Source of the DNA: Bacteroidales bacterium
GTDB taxonomy: Bacteria > Bacteroidota > Bacteroidia > Bacteroidales > UBA932
Assembly: GCA_017548505.1 (NCBI GenBank)
Contig: JAFYZX010000064.1
Location: forward strand, 1-39,940
Reading direction: 5' to 3'
Length of the DNA: 39,940 nt
Position numbers and translations under genes: made by a program. A model generated the notes under the pieces. The model ran no database searches and had not been told where the DNA came from. It saw only the letters and a list, made by a program, of their open reading frames with translations. Shown piece after piece: positions 21,578 through 33,710 of the stretch; the stretch's first letter is position 1, and each line of letters opens with the position of its first letter.

Positions 21578-21579
21578 GG

Positions 21580-21665
21580 CGGTGAGTGAGGGATTCGAAC
21601 CCCCGTTGCATTAACTGCAAACCTGTTTTCGAGGCAGGCTCCTTAAACCACTCGGACAACTCACC
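21580..21665 (-). tRNA. tRNA-Ser(CGA)
   Basis: The acceptor arms GGTGAGT and ACTCACC pair fully, and the discriminator is G. The anticodon loop reads CTCGAAA, giving anticodon CGA for codon UCG. The long variable arm (TTTGCAGTTAATGCAAC) is typical of serine tRNAs, and the T-arm contains GGTTCGAATCC. The closing pair of the anticodon stem is a C-A mismatch. The 3' CCA is not fully encoded. Confidence 0.93.
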
Positions 21666-21715
21666 TGGAAATAATTCTCTCCTGGATTCCGTCGGGCTTA
21701 CGCCCTCCGGCTTCC

Positions 21716-21737
21716 CTGCCCGCCTGCGGCGGGGCAG
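21716..21737. repeat. GC-rich hairpin between the two serine tRNAs
   Basis: CTGCC plus CGCC (21716-21724) pairs with GGCG plus GGCAG (21728-21737), with one bulged G and a TGC loop. It lies in a GC-rich block (about 21687-21740) unlike the AT-rich flanks and resembles dispersed intergenic repeats of Bacteroidales. No second copy was seen in this window. Confidence 0.5.
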
Positions 21738-21753
21738 TGCAACCCTTCATAAA

Positions 21754-21784
21754 TAATGGCGCTCAAGCAAGCTTGGCGCCATTA
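21754..21784. repeat. Long inverted repeat between the two serine tRNAs
   Basis: A 9-bp arm (TAATGGCGC, 21754-21762) pairs perfectly with 21776-21784. A further CAAG/CTTG pair lies inside, closing a CAAG loop. It is a candidate RNA-processing structure in a joint tRNA transcript, or a repeat element. Confidence 0.55.
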
Positions 21785-21798
21785 CTTATTCAGTCTTG

Positions 21799-21883
21799 CG
21801 GAGAGACAGGGATTCGAACCCCGGGAGGCTTTCACCTCAACAGTTTTCAAGACTGCCGCAATCGACCACTCTGCCATCTCTCC
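21799..21883 (-). tRNA. tRNA-Ser(UGA)
   Basis: The acceptor arms GGAGAGA and TCTCTCC pair fully, with discriminator G. The anticodon loop CTTGAAA gives anticodon UGA for codon UCA. The anticodon stem CAGT/ACTG is intact, the variable arm is long, and the T-arm is GGTTCGAATCC. The 3' CCA is not encoded. It is upstream of the other serine tRNA on the same strand, 133 bp away. Confidence 0.95.
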
Positions 21884-22586: not shown

Positions 22587-23411
22587 TTACCTGCTCTCCT
22601 TGTCCTCTACGTTAAGGGTTGCGTGAGGAACCAGAAGAAGCCTTGCCTTTGGAATGAGTTTTCCTGTCTTGCGGCTGATGCCGTAGGTCTTGTTCTCGAT
22701 TCTTACCAGAGCTGCCTCAAGGTTCTGGATGAACTTGTACTGGCGGTTTGCCAGCTGGCTGCTCTCCTCCTTAGAAAGGGAGAATGCACCCTCCTCGATT
22801 ACCTGGAACGAAGGGGAAGTGTCTTCCACGTCGTTGCTGGTGCGGTGGGTAATTGCAGAACGCAGCATCTCGTAATCATCCTTTGCCTTGGCAAGTTTCT
22901 CGAGAATTATCTTCTTGAACTCCTGAAGGTCAGCGTCGCTGTAGCGTACCTTCGGAACCTCAGGAACATTTACAGGGGCCGGGGCTTTTGGAGCTACCTT
23001 CTGGGCAGGAGCTTTTGGAGCCTCTTTCTTTACCGGAGCCTTGGCAGGGGCCTTCTTTACCGGAGCTTTGGCAACGGCCTTCTTGGCTGGAGCCTTTGCA
23101 ACGGTCTTCTTTACCGGAGCCTTTGAAACAGCTTTCTTTGCTGGAGCTTTTGCAACGACCTTCTTGGCAGGAGCTTTCTTTGCAGGGGCCTTTGCAACAG
23201 CTTTCTTTACTGGAGCCTTTGCAACAACCTTCTTGGCTGGGGCCTTTGCTGCAACCTTCTTTGGAGCAGCAGCCTTTACGGGCTTCTTGGCAACAGCTTT
23301 TGCCGCAGAAACCTTAGGCTCTGCTTTTTTCACAACGGCTTTCTTTGCTGCCGGCTTCGGGGCAGTCTTCTTTGGAGCCACTTTGGCTGCCTTCTTCACT
23401 TTTGTTGCCAT
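22587..23411 (-). CDS. TraR/DksA-like regulator with histone-H1-like Lys/Ala/Pro tail
   Basis: The product has 274 residues. Residues 1-150 are almost only Lys, Ala, Pro and Val and contain about nine copies of a nonapeptide KKxVAKAP(A/V). Residues 155-274 are a Bacteroidota DksA/TraR-type domain ([68 protein letters not shown]). I see no cysteine in the whole protein. The position usually occupied by Cys in the zinc-finger remnant (YGIC) is Ser246. The domain should act at the RNA polymerase secondary channel, and the basic tail should bind DNA or RNA. It lies between ileS and lspA, the order common in Bacteroidota, where the protein is usually near 125 residues. Confidence 0.85.
23001..23261 (-). 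repeat. Degenerate 27-bp tandem repeats encoding KKxVAKAPx
   Basis: This in-gene tandem array encodes residues about 51-137 of the DksA-like protein. Unit changes are mostly Ala/Val/Thr swaps and one five-residue partial unit. The array could expand or contract in frame. Confidence 0.75.
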
Positions 23412-26954: not shown

Positions 26955-27464
26955 ATGAACATAATAGACATTGCAATCATCGTAATAGGAGTAGTCGCAC
27001 TCATCTGGGGAGCCTGGAAAGGATTCATTGCACAGCTGATTTCCATACTCGGTGTTTTCGTGGGAATCTGGGGAGCATCCAAGTTCACGCCCTACCTTAC
27101 CGGCATAGTATCCGGCTGGCTTGGAGAAGGCCAGAACGAGTCTGTTGTCAAGGTGGTTGTCTTCATAGTTCTTGTAATTGTCATAATCCTGATCTGCCAC
27201 CTCTTGGGCAAAGCGCTGGAGAAAGTCCTCGGGCTTACGGTTCTGGGCGGAGTGAACAGGCTGTTCGGCGCAATTTTCTGCGTCCTTAAGATCGCGCTTC
27301 TGCTGATTGCCTTAGCATCGCTGACAAAGAGTTCTCTTGAGGCAATGCAGATTCCGGTTCCGGAGTATCTTGCGCAGAGCAAAATCTACGCTTTACTGCT
27401 ACAGGCCTCAGAGCAGATTCTGCCGTTCGTTAAGGAGATGTTCGGCAAGATTACCGCCGCTTAA
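26955..27464 (+). CDS. cvpA: CvpA family membrane protein
   Basis: The product has 169 residues with four membrane helices: about 4-24, 28-46, 64-86 and 100-120. MNIIDIAIIVIGVVALIWGAWKGFIAQLISILG is the typical CvpA N-terminus (D near residue 5, then the G-KG-I pattern). The family is named from colicin V production in E. coli, where it affects purine synthesis and envelope properties. Its molecular role is not settled. It is a housekeeping gene in Bacteroidota, so its place before the peptide-export locus may be coincidental. The two are separated by 128 bp with three inverted repeats. Confidence 0.88.
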   Translation: MNIIDIAIIVIGVVALIWGAWKGFIAQLISILGVFVGIWGASKFTPYLTGIVSGWLGEGQNESVVKVVVFIVLVIVIILICHLLGKALEKVLGLTVLGGVNRLFGAIFCVLKIALLLIALASLTKSSLEAMQIPVPEYLAQSKIYALLLQASEQILPFVKEMFGKITAA

Positions 27465-27497
27465 ACCCCTTGAACCGAAAAAAAGTTGCTCATTTCC

Positions 27498-27549
27498 GTA
27501 CGATTCCAGAATCGTACAGGGTAAATTTTACCGGATGGTTTTGAAAACC
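27498..27549. promoter_or_regulatory. Three consecutive inverted repeats upstream of the peptide-export operon
   Basis: GTACGATTC-CA-GAATCGTAC occupies 27498-27517. GGTAAA-T-TTTACC occupies 27520-27532. GGTTTT-G-AAAACC occupies 27537-27549. All arms are perfect, and the centres are about 17-18 bp apart. The first could also be a terminator of cvpA, but no T run follows it. The three together lie just upstream of a near-consensus -7 element and are candidate operators. Confidence 0.6.
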
Positions 27550-27563
27550 CTCCCTCCTGCCTT

Positions 27564-27571
27564 CATATTTG
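27564..27571 (+). promoter_or_regulatory. Possible -7 element CATATTTG for the peptide-export operon
   Basis: This has one mismatch to TAnnTTTG, 21 bp upstream of the ATG at 27593. Confidence 0.35.
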
Positions 27572-27592
27572 CATCGTCAAAAACAACCGGCG

Positions 27593-27769
27593 ATGAAAAG
27601 AAAAAGGAAACGGGAGGAGGGCATTCTTGACGGCTTTGCCAAAGACCTGGAGCGCAGCCCCGAATGGGCGGCGGACGGTCCGGGACGAGGCTCCCTTCTT
27701 CTTTATATCTTTCTCATTGCAGCCGGGATTTGTCTTTGTCTTGGAACATTGGCGGTATTGCTGGGATGA
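27593..27769 (+). CDS. 58-residue single-pass membrane protein, first gene of the peptide-export locus
   Basis: The product has 58 residues from the ATG at 27593. The N-terminus is strongly basic (MKRKRKRE), followed by a charged cytoplasmic segment and one membrane helix at about 35-57 (LLLYIFLIAAGICLCLGTLAVLL). It has no double-glycine leader, so it is not an obvious export substrate. Its stop overlaps the start of the ABC exporter (ATGA), which shows coupling. By size and place it could be an immunity protein or an accessory of the exporter. Both are guesses. I recognise no family. Confidence 0.65.
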   Translation: MKRKRKREEGILDGFAKDLERSPEWAADGPGRGSLLLYIFLIAAGICLCLGTLAVLLG

Positions 27770-29895
27770 GAAGGAAAATCCACATAAGGCAGACTGATTC
27801 ATACGACTGCGGGGCGGCTAGCCTTGCAGCCGTGGCGGCCTGGTGGGGAGTGAGGCTTCCGCTTGCCCGCTTAAGGCGGGAATGCGGATGCTCAACCGAT
27901 GGGATAACCCTGCGTGGAATTGCAGACGGAGCCGCCGCCATCGGACTGAACGCCAAGGCGATGAAGGCACAGGACTTTGACAGGTTGGATCTGGAGGGGA
28001 GGGTGTCTCTTCTCAGAAATCTTAAGGAAGCCGGCGGACCTGTCATTATCCACACGGTTTCCAAGGAAGGATTGCTGCATTATATGGTCATTTATAAAGT
28101 GGGGAGGAAAAGTGTGGAAATTATGGACCCTGCCAGGGAAAGGATCGGGAGGGTGAATATTGCGGATCTTGCAGGAAGATGGAGCGGTTATGTCGTGCTT
28201 GTTGGCCCGGGAGAAGGATATCGTGAAGAAGACCGGACCGAAGGCAGAAGACTGAGGCTGCTTCGTCTTTTTACTATGCACCGTAGAGAAATAATCCTTG
28301 CCCTGGCCGGCTCCATAGTGCTCTCAGCAATGGGAATATGCAATTCCCTACTGATGCAGATGCTCATAGACAGGGCCATCCCGGGGCGCAATCTGACATA
28401 TCTCATCGCCCTGGCCGCTGTAATTATCGCGATGATACCACTGTCTCTTGTTATCGGATATCTCAGAGACCTGTACCTTTTAAAGGGAGGACTTTCCATA
28501 GACAACTCGCTGATTATAGGCTTTATGAGAAGAATCCTCAAGATGGACGAGAGATTCTTCAGCGATTATTCCAAGGGGGAACTTGAAAGCAGGCTTTCCG
28601 ATACCGTGAAGATAAGGATGTTCATCTGCGAAGGAGTGGTGAGCTTCAGTGTCTGCGCCGCAACTTTAACCGGAGTCTGCACCCTGATGTTCACTTTTTA
28701 CAGCCGGCTGGCGGCGATGCTGATGGCCTGCATACCGGTTTACGCCATTTTGGTGGGTGTGGCGGACAAGGTTAACCGCAGGATGAGCCGCAAGGTTATG
28801 GGCGCTGCGGCAGACTTTGAAAGCGACGTGATGGATTCCATAGAAGGACAGGCGGATATCAGGCATTTTGGAACGGACACTTCCAGTCTGGCTTTCAACG
28901 GCAGTTACTCCGGACTGTTGTTTGCAAGATTCAGGGCCGGACGGGTTTCCGCTTTGCTGGGAGGTCTTTCCAATGCTCTGAACCAGATTATATTGGGAGC
29001 GGTGCTTATAATCGGGGGAGCAGCCGTGCTGGGTGGAAAAATGAGCCTTGGAGAACTGGTGAGTTTCTGGAGCCTGAGCGCATTCTTCATTTCTCCGGCA
29101 AGCACTCTGGTCCATTTTGACTCGCTTATGAACGAGGCTCTCGTGGCCTCGGACAGAATCTACGGGATAACCTCTTTCTCCGATGAGAATCCGGACAGTA
29201 CCGTAAGGATGCCGAAAGGCCTGGCAAAAGACCTTGTCCTGGATAACGTATGCTTCCGCTATCGCGGAGGAAAACCATTGATAAAAAATTTCAGCTGCAC
29301 ATTCTCCCCTGGCGGGATTACCGGAATAACCGGCCCGAACGGATGCGGAAAGAGCACTCTGGCCTCTCTGATTCTCAGAGACTTTACTCCCGACAGCGGA
29401 AAGATAACCTATGGTGGCATTGACATATCTAGTATTAATTCTACTTGCTGGAGGAGTCTTCTTTCTTCTTTTCCTCAAAACTCTCACCTTTTCAATGCCA
29501 CCATCTTCGACAACATCGCGATGTCCCCGGGAAGAAGGGACTCAAGCATAGATATAAAGGATGTTGAACGGGCTACTGCCGCCCTTGTGGCTGCAGGCGG
29601 ACAAAACATTGTCAGCAGGACGGACAAGGGTCTGCTTTCCTCTTTGGGGAAAGGAGGCCTGAGGCTGTCCTCCGGAGAAAAACAGATGGTCCTCATTGCC
29701 AGGATGCTGTACGCGGACCCGGATGTAATGGTCTTTGACGAAGCGGCTTCCAATATGGACGAAAAGACTCTGGAACACTTTAAGAAACTGCTCCTATCCC
29801 TGAAGGCAAGAGGCAAGTGCATAATTCTCATAACACACGATGAGAGAATTGCCTTGTGCTGCGACAAGATAATTGATATGACCGGTCTATCATAG
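27766..29895 (+). CDS. Peptidase-containing ABC exporter (C39 bacteriocin-processing, PCAT type)
   Basis: The product has 709 residues from the ATG at 27766; a longer frame begins at 27664 but overlaps the upstream gene. The order is C39 cysteine protease (1-140: Gln9, Cys15 in DCGAAS, His105 in LLHYMVIY, Asp121 in MDP), six-helix ABC membrane domain (about 165-440), and nucleotide-binding domain. The last has Walker A GPNGCGKST at 523-531, signature LSSGEKQ at 634-640, Walker B VMVFDEA with Glu659, and ITHDE. Such proteins cut precursor peptides after a double glycine and export the mature peptide. Two genes with such leaders follow directly, and a TolC/adaptor pair lies further downstream. 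Confidence 0.95.
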   Translation: MRRKIHIRQTDSYDCGAASLAAVAAWWGVRLPLARLRRECGCSTDGITLRGIADGAAAIGLNAKAMKAQDFDRLDLEGRVSLLRNLKEAGGPVIIHTVSKEGLLHYMVIYKVGRKSVEIMDPARERIGRVNIADLAGRWSGYVVLVGPGEGYREEDRTEGRRLRLLRLFTMHRREIILALAGSIVLSAMGICNSLLMQMLIDRAIPGRNLTYLIALAAVIIAMIPLSLVIGYLRDLYLLKGGLSIDNSLIIGFMRRILKMDERFFSDYSKGELESRLSDTVKIRMFICEGVVSFSVCAATLTGVCTLMFTFYSRLAAMLMACIPVYAILVGVADKVNRRMSRKVMGAAADFESDVMDSIEGQADIRHFGTDTSSLAFNGSYSGLLFARFRAGRVSALLGGLSNALNQIILGAVLIIGGAAVLGGKMSLGELVSFWSLSAFFISPASTLVHFDSLMNEALVASDRIYGITSFSDENPDSTVRMPKGLAKDLVLDNVCFRYRGGKPLIKNFSCTFSPGGITGITGPNGCGKSTLASLILRDFTPDSGKITYGGIDISSINSTCWRSLLSSFPQNSHLFNATIFDNIAMSPGRRDSSIDIKDVERATAALVAAGGQNIVSRTDKGLLSSLGKGGLRLSSGEKQMVLIARMLYADPDVMVFDEAASNMDEKTLEHFKKLLLSLKARGKCIILITHDERIALCCDKIIDMTGLS

Positions 29896-29945
29896 GCGGA
29901 ATCCGGCGCGCCAACTCTGCCGGAAATCAAACACTGTTGACAAAA

Positions 29946-30158
29946 ATGGAAGAAAAGAGAATGAAAGTGAGCGGATTTGTCGATGCAACAGACGACGAGC
30001 TCGCCGTGTGCGGGGGAATTAACCCCGAGACAATCAGGAAGATCGCAAAGATCCTCGGAATCATCGTAGACTTCGTGATGAGCTATGGCGAAGACTTCTA
30101 CAAGGGCTACAAGAAAGGGGTCGAAGGCAAGCCTCTGTTTGTGTTTTCTAACAGGTAA
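29946..30158 (+). CDS. Double-glycine-leader peptide precursor 1
   Basis: The product has 70 residues from the ATG at 29946; an in-frame TTG lies at 29937 and a second ATG at 29961. The leader reads GFVDATDDELAVCGG and ends at Gly23-Gly24, with Val at -4 and acidic residues at -7 to -9. The predicted mature peptide has 46 residues starting INPETIRKIAKILGIIVDF. It is amphipathic and then Gly/Lys rich, with GYKKG, a GxxxG motif. It lies 50 bp after the C39 exporter. It is probably a bacteriocin or signal peptide. The leader is less canonical than that of precursor 2. Confidence 0.75.
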   Translation: MEEKRMKVSGFVDATDDELAVCGGINPETIRKIAKILGIIVDFVMSYGEDFYKGYKKGVEGKPLFVFSNR

Positions 30159-30163
30159 GGAGG
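30158..30163 (+). promoter_or_regulatory. Strong Shine-Dalgarno AGGAGG before peptide 2
   Basis: AGGAGG lies 7 nt before the ATG at 30171. It decides for that start over the out-of-frame ATG at 30164, which directly abuts it. Such strong sites are uncommon in Bacteroidota and suggest high expression of the peptide. Confidence 0.65.
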
Positions 30164-30170
30164 ATGGAAT

Positions 30171-30365
30171 ATGAACGGATTCATTGAATTGTCCGCCTCC
30201 GAGCAGACTTTGGTCTTCGGCGGAAAGGATGCGGACGTATCCCGCCTGATGGAAGTTTTGGGATACGGAATCGGCGCTCTGGTAAGAGCTATCAAGAATT
30301 TCATCCAGAACAGGCAGAACCTGCAGAACATTCCTGTTGAACTCCTGAAGCTGTACGCCAAATGA
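30171..30365 (+). CDS. Double-glycine-leader peptide precursor 2
   Basis: The product has 64 residues. The 18-residue leader MNGFIELSASEQTLVFGG fits the classical consensus: Leu at -12, Ser at -11, Glu at -8, Val at -4 and Gly-Gly. The predicted mature peptide has 46 residues, the same as precursor 1. It begins KDADVSRLMEVLGYGIGALVRAIKNF, with GYGIG giving a GxxxG motif, and is cationic and helical. It follows precursor 1 by 12 bp with a strong ribosome site. The pair resembles class IIb two-peptide bacteriocins. A signalling or contact-toxin role is also possible. Confidence 0.82.
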   Translation: MNGFIELSASEQTLVFGGKDADVSRLMEVLGYGIGALVRAIKNFIQNRQNLQNIPVELLKLYAK

Positions 30366-30380
30366 AATGTATGGATTCAG

Positions 30381-30413
30381 AAAAGGAGGCTGGCATGCGT
30401 CAGCCTCCTTTTT
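30381..30413. terminator. Strong intrinsic terminator after the peptide genes
   Basis: A perfect 12-bp stem pairs AAAAGGAGGCTG (30381-30392) with 30401-30412 around an 8-nt loop, ending in a run of T. The stem carries A and T runs at its two ends, so it should work on both strands. It separates the peptide locus from the TolC gene. Confidence 0.9.
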
Positions 30414-30415
30414 AC

Positions 30416-30423
30416 TATATTTG
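30416..30423 (+). promoter_or_regulatory. -7 promoter element, TATATTTG, for the TolC/adaptor operon
   Basis: This is an exact match to TAnnTTTG, starting 3 bp after the terminator and ending 4 bp before the ATG at 30428. A normal start-site distance would make the message leaderless. Confidence 0.45.
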
Positions 30424-30427
30424 CGCG

Positions 30428-31759
30428 ATGAAAAAAATTTTGGTCATATACACCGTTCTCGCTTTGGCTTTCGGCACGGGAGCAAATGCCCAGGAATCAA
30501 GGCTTTGGACTTTGCAGCAGTGCATAGAGTATGCCAGGCAGAACAACCTGCAGGTCAAGATGGAAGAGATTGGCGTGGAGCAGGCTGAAGGAAACCTCAC
30601 ACAGTCCAAATGGGACCTGGCTCCAAGCATAAATGCCGGCCTTAGCCACAGCATGAGTTGGGGAAGAAGCGTCAATCTCCAGACTCTGGAGATAATAAAG
30701 AATAAGAGGAGCATGTCCACCAGCGGAAACCTCAGCGCTTCCGCCACCATTTTCTCAGGATTCGCAAAGTTGAATTCCATAAAAAGCAATTACACTTCCC
30801 TCCAGATAGCAAAAGAACAGGTAGAAAAGGTTAAGAACGATATCACGATTCAGATTACCAGAGCTTACCTTCAGCTGCTGCTGGCAAGGGAGATAGAGCG
30901 CAGCGCCATCGAAAGCTGCAACAGCACTGCCGAGCAGGTGGACCGTACAGCCAAGCTGGTGGATGCCGGAAGCCAGGCCTACAGCACTCTGCTGGAGGTT
31001 CAGGCCCAGTTGGCCAACGAAAAATCACAGCTGGTAAGCGCTTCTTCAGACGTGAGAACCAACCTTCTGACTCTGATGCAGCTTCTGGATCTGCCTGCCG
31101 AAATGCAGAAGGATTTCGACATTGCGGCACCGGACAGCACCCTTAGCGAAAACCTTCTTCCGGAAGGAACGGTGGACGGGATTTTCAGCCAGGCCCTCCA
31201 GCTTCCGCAGGTAAAAATCGCCGAGTACAATCTTGAAAAAAGCAAATACGATTTCAAGGCGATAAGGGCGAGAATGCTGCCTTCACTTTCCGTTCAGGCG
31301 GGCTACGGTTCCTATTATACAGACGGCCAGAGCGGGGCTTTCTTCACCCAGTTCGAGCATAACAAGAACCCTTCTGTGGGATTCTCCCTTAGCATTCCTG
31401 TTTTCAACGGCTTTTCTTCAAGGATTGCGGCCAGGAACGCAAGACTGGCCTCTGAAAACACGGCCCTGATGCTGGAAGTGCAGAAGCAGTCTCTCTACAA
31501 GGAAATCCAGACAGCATACAACGAGGCGTTCAATGCTCTAGAGAGGATGAAGGCGGCCAGGGAAAACATGAGAAGCATACAGGAATCTTTCACCTATACG
31601 GAAAACAAGTTCAACGTGGGAATGATGAACGCCACGGACTACAACATCGCCAAGACTAACCTGTTCAAGGCGGTAAGTGCCTATTACCAGGCCAAGTACC
31701 AGTATCTGTTCGAGGTTAAGATCCTGGATTTCTATAAAGGCAAGGCCATAAATTTATAA
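30428..31759 (+). CDS. TolC family outer-membrane efflux/secretion channel
   Basis: The product has 443 residues from the ATG at 30428; the frame is open upstream to 30362 but overlaps the terminator. The signal peptide ends near ANAQ. It has two outer-membrane efflux repeats: about 25-220 (WTLQQCIEYARQNNLQVKMEEIGVEQAEGNLTQSKWDLAPSINAG) and about 240-440 (LPQVKIAEYNLEKSKYDFKAIRARMLPSLSVQAGYG). Long coiled-coil stretches are typical of the periplasmic tunnel. It forms the outer-membrane exit for pumps and type I secretion. The adaptor gene follows 10 bp later. The nearest inner-membrane partner in the window is the C39 exporter just upstream, but it is on a different transcript. Confidence 0.93.
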   Translation: MKKILVIYTVLALAFGTGANAQESRLWTLQQCIEYARQNNLQVKMEEIGVEQAEGNLTQSKWDLAPSINAGLSHSMSWGRSVNLQTLEIIKNKRSMSTSGNLSASATIFSGFAKLNSIKSNYTSLQIAKEQVEKVKNDITIQITRAYLQLLLAREIERSAIESCNSTAEQVDRTAKLVDAGSQAYSTLLEVQAQLANEKSQLVSASSDVRTNLLTLMQLLDLPAEMQKDFDIAAPDSTLSENLLPEGTVDGIFSQALQLPQVKIAEYNLEKSKYDFKAIRARMLPSLSVQAGYGSYYTDGQSGAFFTQFEHNKNPSVGFSLSIPVFNGFSSRIAARNARLASENTALMLEVQKQSLYKEIQTAYNEAFNALERMKAARENMRSIQESFTYTENKFNVGMMNATDYNIAKTNLFKAVSAYYQAKYQYLFEVKILDFYKGKAINL

Positions 31760-31769
31760 ACACAGACCA

Positions 31770-32993
31770 ATGGCAAAGAAGAAGAAAAAGAGCATCTGGT
31801 GGATAGCGGCAGCGGTCCTGATCGTGATCCTGATGATTGCATCCAAGACGTGCAAGCAGGACAAGACTCCAGTAGTGGACACTTCCAAAGTGGAAAGGAT
31901 GACCATTACAGAAACAATACCGGCAAACGGCAAGATCCAGCCTGTTACGGAGGTAAAGATTTCCCCGGACGTTTCCGGAGAAATCGTGGAACTTCACGTA
32001 AAGGAAGGAGACAGGGTGAAGAAGGGAGACCTTATCATCAAGATCAAGCAGGACATCTACCTTTCTGCAGTTGACCAGGCAATGGCATCGGTTAACGCCG
32101 CAAGAGCTTCCTACAAGCAGCAGCAGGCACAGACTCTGCGTGCAAAGCAGAACTACGACCGCTATGCCAAACTCTATGAACTGAGGACAGTTTCCAAGGC
32201 CGAGTACGAAGCCGCCAGCGCGGAATGGGATGTGGCACAGCAGCAGCTGGATGGAGCCAAGTACAACATCTCCAGTGCGGAAGCCCGTTTGAAGGAAGCT
32301 CGGGAAAACCTGGTTAAGACCACTATCTACTCCCCTATGGACGGTATCATTTCCAAACTTAGCGTGGAACTCGGAGAAAGGGTTGTGGGAACAAGCCAGA
32401 TGGCGGGAACGGAAATGTTCCGCGTGGCTGACTTCAGCCAGATGGAGGTGCTGGTGGATGTCAACGAGAACGACATCATCCGCCTCAACCCCGGAGACAG
32501 CGCCCAGATTACCGTTGACGCCTATACGGACCGCACCTTCTACGGGGTTGTCACTGAGGTTGCAAACTCCTCCAAAAGCTCCACAACAACTTCTCTGGAC
32601 CAGGCCACAACCTTTGAGGTTAAGGTCAGGATTTCTCCTGAGTCATACATGGATCTTCTTTCCGAGAACTCGTCTCCGTTCCGTCCGGGAATGAGCGCTT
32701 CCGTCCAGATCCAGACCAGCAGGGCAGAGAATGTTCTTGCCCTTCCGGTTTCCGCAATAACCTCCAGGAGCGATCTTGGAGAAAGCGGAAAGGCATTTGT
32801 ATTCACCTATTCCGCCAAGGATCAGACCGTCCATCCTGTAGCCATAAAGACCGGCCTCCAGGATATGACTCACGTTCAGATAACGGATGGCCTTTCAGAC
32901 ACTTCCGTTATTGTGACCGGACCGTTTGCCGCAATCAGCAAGACTCTCAAGGACGGAATGAAGGTCAAGGTCTCACAGGCAAAGACAAAATAA
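31770..32993 (+). CDS. Periplasmic adaptor (membrane-fusion protein), HlyD/MacA type
   Basis: The product has 407 residues. A basic N-terminus (MAKKKKK) is followed by one membrane helix (IWWIAAAVLIVILMIAS). Next are a biotinyl-lipoyl half-domain (VSGEIVELHVKEGDRVKKGDLIIKI), a helical hairpin (about 90-185, AMASVNAARASYKQQQAQTLRAKQNYDRYAKL), the second lipoyl half (YSPMDGIISKLSVELGERVVGT), a beta-barrel domain, and a membrane-proximal domain ending in GMKVKVSQAK. It bridges an inner-membrane pump and TolC. No MacB or RND pump gene follows. The next gene is tsaB, an order I recall from other Bacteroidales, so its true partner is open. Confidence 0.92.
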   Translation: MAKKKKKSIWWIAAAVLIVILMIASKTCKQDKTPVVDTSKVERMTITETIPANGKIQPVTEVKISPDVSGEIVELHVKEGDRVKKGDLIIKIKQDIYLSAVDQAMASVNAARASYKQQQAQTLRAKQNYDRYAKLYELRTVSKAEYEAASAEWDVAQQQLDGAKYNISSAEARLKEARENLVKTTIYSPMDGIISKLSVELGERVVGTSQMAGTEMFRVADFSQMEVLVDVNENDIIRLNPGDSAQITVDAYTDRTFYGVVTEVANSSKSSTTTSLDQATTFEVKVRISPESYMDLLSENSSPFRPGMSASVQIQTSRAENVLALPVSAITSRSDLGESGKAFVFTYSAKDQTVHPVAIKTGLQDMTHVQITDGLSDTSVIVTGPFAAISKTLKDGMKVKVSQAKTK

Positions 32994-33005
32994 TTTTCCT
33001 CAGCG

Positions 33006-33710
33006 ATGGGCAAATTCATTCTTCTTGTAGAATCGGCCACGGACACCTGCTCGGCAGCTCTTTCTGACGGGGACATTCTCCTTGCCCAGAAAGTCTGCCG
33101 CATTGCCAGAAGCCACGATACGGTCCTGGCTCCACTGATTGACGGGATTCTTAAGGAAAATGGAGTAAAACCGGCAGACCTTGCCGCAGTAGCCGTAAGC
33201 GAAGGCCCGGGAAGCTATATGGGCCTGAGAATCGGTGTCTCCCTGGCTAAGGGAATTGCCTACGCCGCCAAGACCAATCTCATAGGTATCAGCACACTGG
33301 CGGTCATAGCGCGCTGTGCCTTAGAGGAAACGGGCAAAAAGTTCAGCCATATAATTCCAATGATCGATGCCGGAAGAATGGAAGTCTATACCGCCGTATT
33401 TGACGGAAACTGCAACCAGACTGAAAAGACAGAGGCAAAGATTCTGGACGAAAACAGTTTCAGGGACCTAATAAAAGAAGGCCCCGTCCTCTTTGCAGGA
33501 AACGGAGCCCCTAAATTCGGGCATCTTCTGGAAGAAAAGCTTGGAGCCCTGCCGGAAAACGTTATAATCATGGAGCAGACTCCACTTGCCTCAGGTCTTG
33601 TGACTGATGCCGCCAAGGCTCTGGAAAAAGGAAGGTTTGCGGACCTTGCCTATTTCCAGCCTTTCTATCTGAAGGATTTTATTCCTGGCAAACAGAAGAA
33701 ACTGCTTTGA
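33006..33710 (+). CDS. tsaB: tRNA threonylcarbamoyladenosine biosynthesis protein TsaB
   Basis: The product has 234 residues. It is an ASKHA-fold partner of TsaD in making t6A37 of ANN-decoding tRNAs. Diagnostic segments are the N-terminal LLVESATDTCSAALSDG, RSHDTVLAPLIDGILKENG and SEGPGSYMGLRIGVSLAKGIAYA (family GPGSFTGLRIG). It starts 12 bp after the adaptor gene, probably co-transcribed. Its last 32 bp overlap the end of the convergent lipoprotein gene. Confidence 0.94.
   Translation: MGKFILLVESATDTCSAALSDGDILLAQKVCRIARSHDTVLAPLIDGILKENGVKPADLAAVAVSEGPGSYMGLRIGVSLAKGIAYAAKTNLIGISTLAVIARCALEETGKKFSHIIPMIDAGRMEVYTAVFDGNCNQTEKTEAKILDENSFRDLIKEGPVLFAGNGAPKFGHLLEEKLGALPENVIIMEQTPLASGLVTDAAKALEKGRFADLAYFQPFYLKDFIPGKQKKLL

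Follow-up and report, generated by a model that had tools for sequence, protein, structure and literature searches.

The 39,940-nucleotide stretch of DNA studied here (hereafter the window) comprises positions 1 to 39,940 of the forward strand of contig JAFYZX010000064.1 from a Bacteroidales bacterium of the family UBA932 (GenBank assembly GCA_017548505.1). Between cvpA and tolC it carries a four-gene unit, here called the cassette, that encodes a protein of 58 amino acids (p58), an ATP-binding cassette (ABC) exporter with a C39 peptidase domain, and two small precursors with double-glycine (Gly-Gly) leaders, pepA and pepB. The two peptide genes form an obligate pair, which we regard as a candidate two-peptide bacteriocin. 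The cassette and its flanks comprise these features:

26955–27464, plus strand: cvpA, Colicin_V production family (Pfam PF02674, 92 bits); kept left flank, outside the cassette
27540–27571, plus strand: promoter-like site of Bacteroidota type, TTTG-N20-CATATTTG, read from the sequence; 5′ of p58
27593–27769, plus strand: p58, 58 amino acids, N-terminus basic, with a single hydrophobic segment at the C-terminal end; ratio of nonsynonymous to synonymous substitution rates (dN/dS) 0.145
27766–29895, plus strand: C39 peptidase-containing ABC exporter (PCAT), 709 amino acids; assigned by Pfam, catalytic triad present in orthologues
29946–30158, plus strand: pepA precursor, 24-residue leader ending in Gly-Gly and 46-residue core with GYKKG; alternative start at 29961
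30171–30365, plus strand: pepB precursor, 18-residue leader ending in Gly-Gly and 46-residue core with GYGIG
30380–30413, plus strand: terminator-like hairpin after pepB (15 pairs, loop of 4, T tract)
30428–31759, plus strand: TolC-family outer membrane channel (Pfam OEP); right flank, possible export partner
31770–32993, plus strand: HlyD/MacA-like periplasmic adaptor (Pfam HlyD_D23, NCBIfam RND_mfp above cut-off); right flank, possible export partner

This layout, in which the open reading frame (ORF) of p58 with its hydrophobic segment overlaps that of the exporter by ATGA and two genes with Gly-Gly leaders follow downstream, confirms what a preliminary description of the locus had outlined. 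The same description had suggested that the two peptides act as a pair, and as an obligate gene pair beside a C39 exporter this holds throughout the orthologous loci. We obtained flanks for 40 + 60 loci, which together with earlier loci were reduced to 112 (one per genome except for one genome with three); by script, 95 of them were syntenic and readable, 15 non-syntenic, and 2 cut off. pepA and pepB are present in the same order in 94/94 orthologous loci with a readable 3′ side (90 found by script and 4 by eye, the latter with GYKKA instead of GYKKG), the window being additional. One further locus, L158, was excluded as an orthologous locus; it had passed the synteny filter only via a weak TolC match and lacks the pair. 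The orthologous loci span 11 of the 25 sampled genera, designated g1, g2, g4, g5, g10, g11, g12, g14, g15, g18, and g21.

Profile searches made irrespective of the exporter gave the same picture: at E ≤ 1e-6, 75 of 149 family genomes carry pepA and 74 carry pepB, with both in 74, pepA alone in one, and pepB alone in none, using family profiles (A5 and A6) that had been built partly from genomes later searched. Two genomes outside the exporter loci, G151 and G175, also carry both peptides, and each genome has one strong copy of each. At E ≤ 0.01 the counts rise to 77/149 for pepA and 82/149 for pepB through additional matches that are weak. A search of 344 genomes from the order with profiles weighted toward the genus hit nothing beyond the family except two weak outsiders (E 0.004 each); each of these profiles missed one family carrier in the draw, so that confinement to the family holds only at that sensitivity. 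Within the genus of the window, G004 was counted as a carrier because both peptides accompany its diverged exporter (26%, E 4e-60), and in G026 the cassette was not found, perhaps for want of assembly, as the contig stops next to tsaB. All family loci come from draft genomes. Nine relatives are metagenome-assembled genomes of Bacteroidales or Bacteroidia, four of them from rumen or omasum; five of the nine are RUG genomes, which we take to be a rumen series.

Both precursors carry a conserved Gly-Gly cleavage site, which is invariant in alignments of pepA and pepB, with AG in only 4/91 scripted pepB sequences. The pepB leader fits the classical consensus with Leu −12, Glu −8, and Val −4 before Gly-Gly, as had been proposed. 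The pepA start is probably at 29946 and not at 29961 because relatives keep a leader of ca. 24 residues that begins with MEE or MED. In 43-row alignments, every row shares the Gly-Gly, G54, and G58 (the GxxxG motif) of pepA as well as the Gly-Gly and G35 of pepB. These rows were chosen by a script rule demanding a GxxxG-like motif; alignments predating this rule, including two of the GYKKA loci, show the same conserved columns with G58 nearly invariant. Such invariant columns are fairer evidence for the motifs than script counts, since the script's pair rule had required the motif: pepA has GxxxG in 91/95 loci and GxxxA in the remaining four, and pepB has strict GxxxG in 71/91. The earlier claim of one GxxxG per core thus stands for GYKKG and GYGIG in the window and, as a conserved motif, for pepA, but in pepB only the second Gly (G35) is kept invariantly in the 43-row alignment. 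Similarly, both cores are indeed 46 residues long in the window, but this equality is no hallmark of the family; we reject it as a coincidence found in 4/91 pairs. Core lengths by script range from 28 to 56 residues in pepA and from 30 to 49 in pepB (91 pairs), though the 56-residue pepA core (L078) reflects an early Gly-Gly picked by the script, another reading giving 42.

The window cores contain no cysteine, carry a charge of about +2.8, and have computed neutral monoisotopic masses of 5278.86 (pepA) and 5210.91 (pepB); median core charges are +1 for pepA and +3 for pepB. Helical amphipathicity exceeds that of shuffles (z > 1.64) in 84/91 pepA cores and 62/91 pepB cores. Over the leader and first helix, PepA and PepB are similar (hhalign probability 95.5%) and therefore may be old duplicates. 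All small frames are under purifying selection, with dN/dS of 0.149 for pepA, 0.122 for pepB, and 0.145 for p58 (medians of 15 pairs over 6 species, with only 13 pairs of finite dS for p58). For comparison, dN/dS is 0.123 for the exporter (six species, median of pairs) and 0.051 for HlyD. The ratio pN/pS is 0.16 in the core versus 0.40 in the leader of pepA and 0.23 versus 0.29 in pepB (short stretches); cores evolve no faster than leaders, which speaks against diversifying selection. None of the three refuting conditions set out in the preliminary description applied: the peptides do co-occur, their Gly-Gly sites are kept, and the small frames show purifying selection.

The exporter itself is intact. 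A Pfam scan of seven window proteins assigned it Peptidase_C39 (87 bits, cut-off 22), ABC_membrane (94, cut-off 28), and ABC_tran (91, cut-off 25), and the reported triad of Cys15, His105, and Asp121 is not only present but identical in 95/95 orthologous exporters including that of the window. At E ≤ 1e-80, exporters were found in 36/39 genomes of the genus and in 86/149 family genomes from 18/25 genera, a count that includes exporters at other places. The non-syntenic exporters (15/112 loci) mostly form a separate clade, some with HlyD upstream, and show no such peptide pair, L137 of g17 with its pair-like couple excepted; the 3′ flank is short in some of them. At L137, cvpA and the exporter are separated by an HlyD-like ORF, and the pair-like couple of Gly-Gly peptides is found further downstream. 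At L130, L133, L171, L169, and L176, family C39 exporters located elsewhere are followed by other peptides with Gly-Gly leaders, mostly one per locus.

Inheritance of the cassette has been mainly vertical. It sits between cvpA and tolC-hlyD-tsaB, and in a tree of 111 exporters g1 (36 tips), g5, g11, g14, g15, g18, and g21 are monophyletic and g10 groups with g12; g2, which includes extra exporters at other places, and g17 are non-monophyletic. Patristic distances of the exporter agree moderately with those of isoleucyl-tRNA synthetase (Spearman 0.59, 73 tips). One genome of the same genus, G037, has no cassette: cvpA is followed directly by tolC with 107 nucleotides between the ORFs, and the pepA and pepB profiles have no match in this genome. 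The G037 junction is not pristine, with an insertion of ca. 3 kb between ileS and cvpA (L198, 5458–8336) that holds what we presume to be an integrase-like and an ATPase-like ORF. The order cvpA-tolC without a cassette is also found in G079, G043, and G044, as well as in the cassette-free G072, where a small ORF occupies the gap of ca. 500 nucleotides. In two g22 genomes the order is ileS-cvpA-tsaB with no cassette, and cvpA adjoins ileS also in other genomes without a cassette there (e.g., G072, G077, and G059). Conversely, the cassette is followed directly by tsaB without tolC in four g14 genomes, and tolC is likewise missing beside the cassette of L087. We take the cassette to be a separate unit, with tolC-hlyD as a neighboring pair able to exist in its absence. 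A mobile or plasmid-borne bacteriocin is not supported given synteny over 11 genera, monophyly of most genera, and the lack of any match of the window's PepA and PepB (tblastn with these peptides only) among 72,556 plasmid records. Since the pair stays in one chromosomal neighborhood in nearly all close relatives, a built-in weapon or signal is more likely. In L077 and L092 of the same genus, the block exporter-peptides-tolC-hlyD-tsaB is inverted relative to ileS-cvpA and ahpC.

Against this vertical background, one inter-species exchange is confined to the peptide segment. Both shared sites and sliding identity place the window closest to L061 along the locus but closest to L062 at pepA. The ratio of L061-shared to L062-shared sites is 69:13 in cvpA, 23:1 in p58, 261:53 in the exporter, 99:36 in tolC, and 84:24 in hlyD, but 7:25 in pepA and 18:16 in pepB (Fisher test versus the exporter, 2e-12 and 1.4e-4, respectively). 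An assembly chimera could mimic the exchange at pepA; L062 is, however, an independent assembly, and we consider an artefact less likely. Exchange of the peptide segment between species is as expected of loci for competition or signaling.

The occurrence of p58 is less constant than that of the peptides. Among 87 loci, 54 have a similarly placed p58-like ORF with a strong hydrophobic segment, compared to 1.6 expected in shuffles and 8 on the other strand. By genus, such an ORF is present in 24/31 loci of g1 and in none of g10 (0/10), g14 (0/11), g12 (0/1), or g4 (0/1), all of which still have the pair. With a laxer limit on hydrophobicity, all nine g5 loci gain a p58-like ORF and the absences in g10, g12, g14, and g4 stay, bar one marginal ORF in g10. 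The earlier suggestion that p58 gives immunity is thus not supported as stated: roughly one in three loci has no equivalent, so p58 is no obligatory immunity gene. Immunity may instead be encoded elsewhere, or p58 may provide it in some lineages. For comparison, the known sizes of class IIb immunity proteins go down to 42 residues, with one to four transmembrane domains (PMC6957408), and bacteroidetocin producers apparently lack immunity proteins (PMC6671954).

Regarding expression, the promoter-like site ends 21 nucleotides upstream of p58, which fits one transcription unit; TTTG-N20-CATATTTG (27540–27571) is presumably an instance of the Bacteroidota promoter consensus. A comparable site was found in 20/87 loci (4.9 expected in shuffles) and, among 40 loci listed, is confined to those of the same genus, e.g., L061–L075. 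At the other end, the strong terminator described previously is visible as the 15-pair hairpin at 30380–30413, but terminator-like sites in the region (2 found, 3.5 expected in shuffles) are not more frequent than in shuffles and the hairpin scan alone is therefore not significant. No RNA element reached the gathering threshold between 26700 and 31000.

The neighborhood also suggests an export route. cvpA, the C39 exporter, the HlyD-like adaptor, and TolC lie side by side in the window (26955–33710), tolC-hlyD adjoins the cassette in most loci, and cvpA-tolC(-hlyD) also occurs without it. HlyD was found at E ≤ 1e-40 in 11/28 genomes chosen for having no orthologous exporter hit, a scarcity that could hint at a link between adaptor and exporter. 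Export of the colicin V type relies on the same three parts (C39 ABC exporter, adaptor, and TolC; PMC10352776), here found in one neighborhood beside cvpA. Unlike in that system, tolC-hlyD follows a terminator-like hairpin and also occurs without the cassette; a working link with the exporter is conjectural. The gap between exporter and tolC measures ca. 450–650 nucleotides in most loci and ca. 1.4 kb in g21. Elsewhere in the window, 22587–23411 encodes a protein with a long, repeated N-terminus rich in Ala, Lys, and Pro and a C-terminal part that we take to be of DksA/TraR type, and a closely spaced pair of serine tRNA genes (cga and tga) occupies the minus strand at 21578–21883.

Database comparisons placed the peptides in no known family. 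Among relatives, the best NCBIfam E-values are 0.00044 for pepA and 0.0085 for pepB, and matches to the BlpC, lactococcin G-beta, and CTB models lie below the cut-offs shown, e.g., 19 bits (cut-off 37) for residues 22–56 of L096 pepA against the lactococcin G-beta model NF038034. The PDB matches at E ≤ 10 include no class IIb entry and no convincing relative of known structure; for pepB, the top hit (E 2e-4) is a designed coiled coil and reflects composition, and three polyprenyl synthases are among the others. The pepB core profile also weakly and repeatedly matches ORFs of ca. 330–530 residues in many genomes (E mostly 0.001–0.01), probably due to a helix pattern shared with an unrelated enzyme, perhaps polyprenyl synthases.

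How does the cassette compare to described systems? Class IIb bacteriocins such as lactococcin G or carnobacteriocin XY share adjacent peptides with Gly-Gly leaders, GxxxG-like motifs, an exporter, and a small hydrophobic protein. The cassette has two precursors encoded together, a double-glycine leader with a C39 exporter, and a GxxxG-like motif in both cores, but differs in its Gram-negative host, its near-core and syntenic instead of accessory distribution, its variable charge, and its as yet putative function. We have not filed it as a class IIb member because an immunity gene beside the peptides in every locus and a profile match to a described family above cut-off are both lacking. Bacteroidetocins share the Bacteroidales host, Gly-Gly leader, C39-type exporter, and apparent lack of an immunity protein, yet are 42-residue peptides with cysteines and leaders of 15–16 residues that are encoded singly with a protein of five transmembrane segments and mostly a thiol oxidoreductase (PMC6671954). 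The two window peptides, with leaders of 18 and 24 residues, Cys-free cores of 46 residues, and other neighbors, are not bacteroidetocins. The Cdz system of Caulobacter also comprises two small type I-secreted proteins with glycine motifs in a Gram-negative host and was likened to class IIb by its authors (PMC5380434). CdzC/D are, however, 84–86 residues long with RTX-like N-terminal regions, extended glycine zippers, and a predicted immunity protein (CdzI) with three transmembrane segments, whereas the window peptides are shorter, led by Gly-Gly, and have one GxxxG each. Judged by published anatomy, the cassette is thus neither a bacteroidetocin nor a Cdz system. Genome-wide surveys predict class II bacteriocins in Bacteroidota generally (PMC12648078, a commentary), and Gly-Gly precursors with C39 exporters have been noted in Bacteroidales (PMC10352776). 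A literature search with subscription papers mostly outside its scope returned no description of the pepA/pepB pair, and the accessible part of a rumen culture-collection survey (PMC13289728) does not mention it.

Our first choice, held with roughly even confidence, is a lineage-wide chromosomal class IIb-like two-peptide bacteriocin system, and we put killing of relatives first because of the architecture and the exchange of alleles. One promoter would probably drive p58, the exporter, pepA, and pepB; the C39 domain would cut each leader after Gly-Gly during export; and the peptides would probably leave through the neighboring HlyD and TolC or through a different TolC. Once outside, the two helices, both amphipathic, would meet through their GxxxG-like faces and insert jointly into the envelopes of Bacteroidales relatives, in the manner of class IIb two-peptide bacteriocins. 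Several observations weigh against this. The cassette is near-core with presence in 37/39 genomes of the genus, and the exporter tree largely follows genera; bacteriocins are usually accessory and patchy. There is no universal immunity candidate in the cassette, the cores show no diversifying selection, and their charge varies from −5 to +5 in pepA and from −4 to +6 in pepB. Moreover, p58, pepA, and pepB of the window have no Pfam or NCBIfam match above cut-off, in agreement with the earlier remark that no described Bacteroidota family could be recognized for the peptides. Near-core status, purifying selection, and the absence of a constant immunity gene also keep alive the idea of a signal or of a factor acting on the producer's own envelope.

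A paired peptide signal, i.e., a heteromeric autoinducer with species-specific alleles and a receptor encoded elsewhere, would account for the near-core presence in the genus, the single strong copy per genome, the mostly vertical inheritance, and the missing constant immunity gene, and exchange of only the peptides is also expected of pherotype loci. The pepA of L082 even matches the model of the pheromone BlpC, albeit at 20 bits (cut-off 70) and over residues 9–34, mostly leader, which says little about the core. However, most gaps along cvpA-exporter-tolC leave no room for a receptor kinase (the region beyond was not screened for kinases, and the receptor may be unlinked), and to our knowledge the Gly-Gly pheromones described so far are single peptides; we consider such a signal unlikely. 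About equally improbable to us is a self-acting envelope or colonization factor, in which the pair would coat or modify the producer's surface without killing or signaling, as surface-held glycine-zipper peptides can do. Conservation in the genus, purifying selection, the lack of a constant immunity gene, and the location beside cvpA and an outer-membrane channel/adaptor pair would all fit, but peptide-confined exchange between species would be left unexplained, and at least one genome of the same genus manages without the cassette. Some C39 exporters handle several Gly-Gly precursors, and pepA and pepB might be just two clients of an exporter that also serves other cargo; with profiles for these two peptides finding one strong copy of each per genome and neither in the cassette-free G037, we find this very unlikely. 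A broader alternative to the bacteriocin, which we entertain only tentatively, is that the near-core, vertically inherited obligate pair is directed at the producer's own kind, serving as a heteromeric signal or an envelope factor whose species alleles can be exchanged, so that its class IIb architecture would not serve killing.

Two-peptide systems with Gly-Gly leaders are known chiefly as accessory weapons of Gram-positive bacteria. Here, a Gram-negative and largely rumen lineage keeps such a pair near-core in one genus and in 11/25 sampled genera of its family. This makes it possible to test how an unmodified peptide pair functions in Bacteroidota, how it gets across two membranes, and what lets producers survive in the absence of a constant immunity gene, with a cassette-free relative at hand for comparison and many natural pairs with which to probe specificity in rumen communities.

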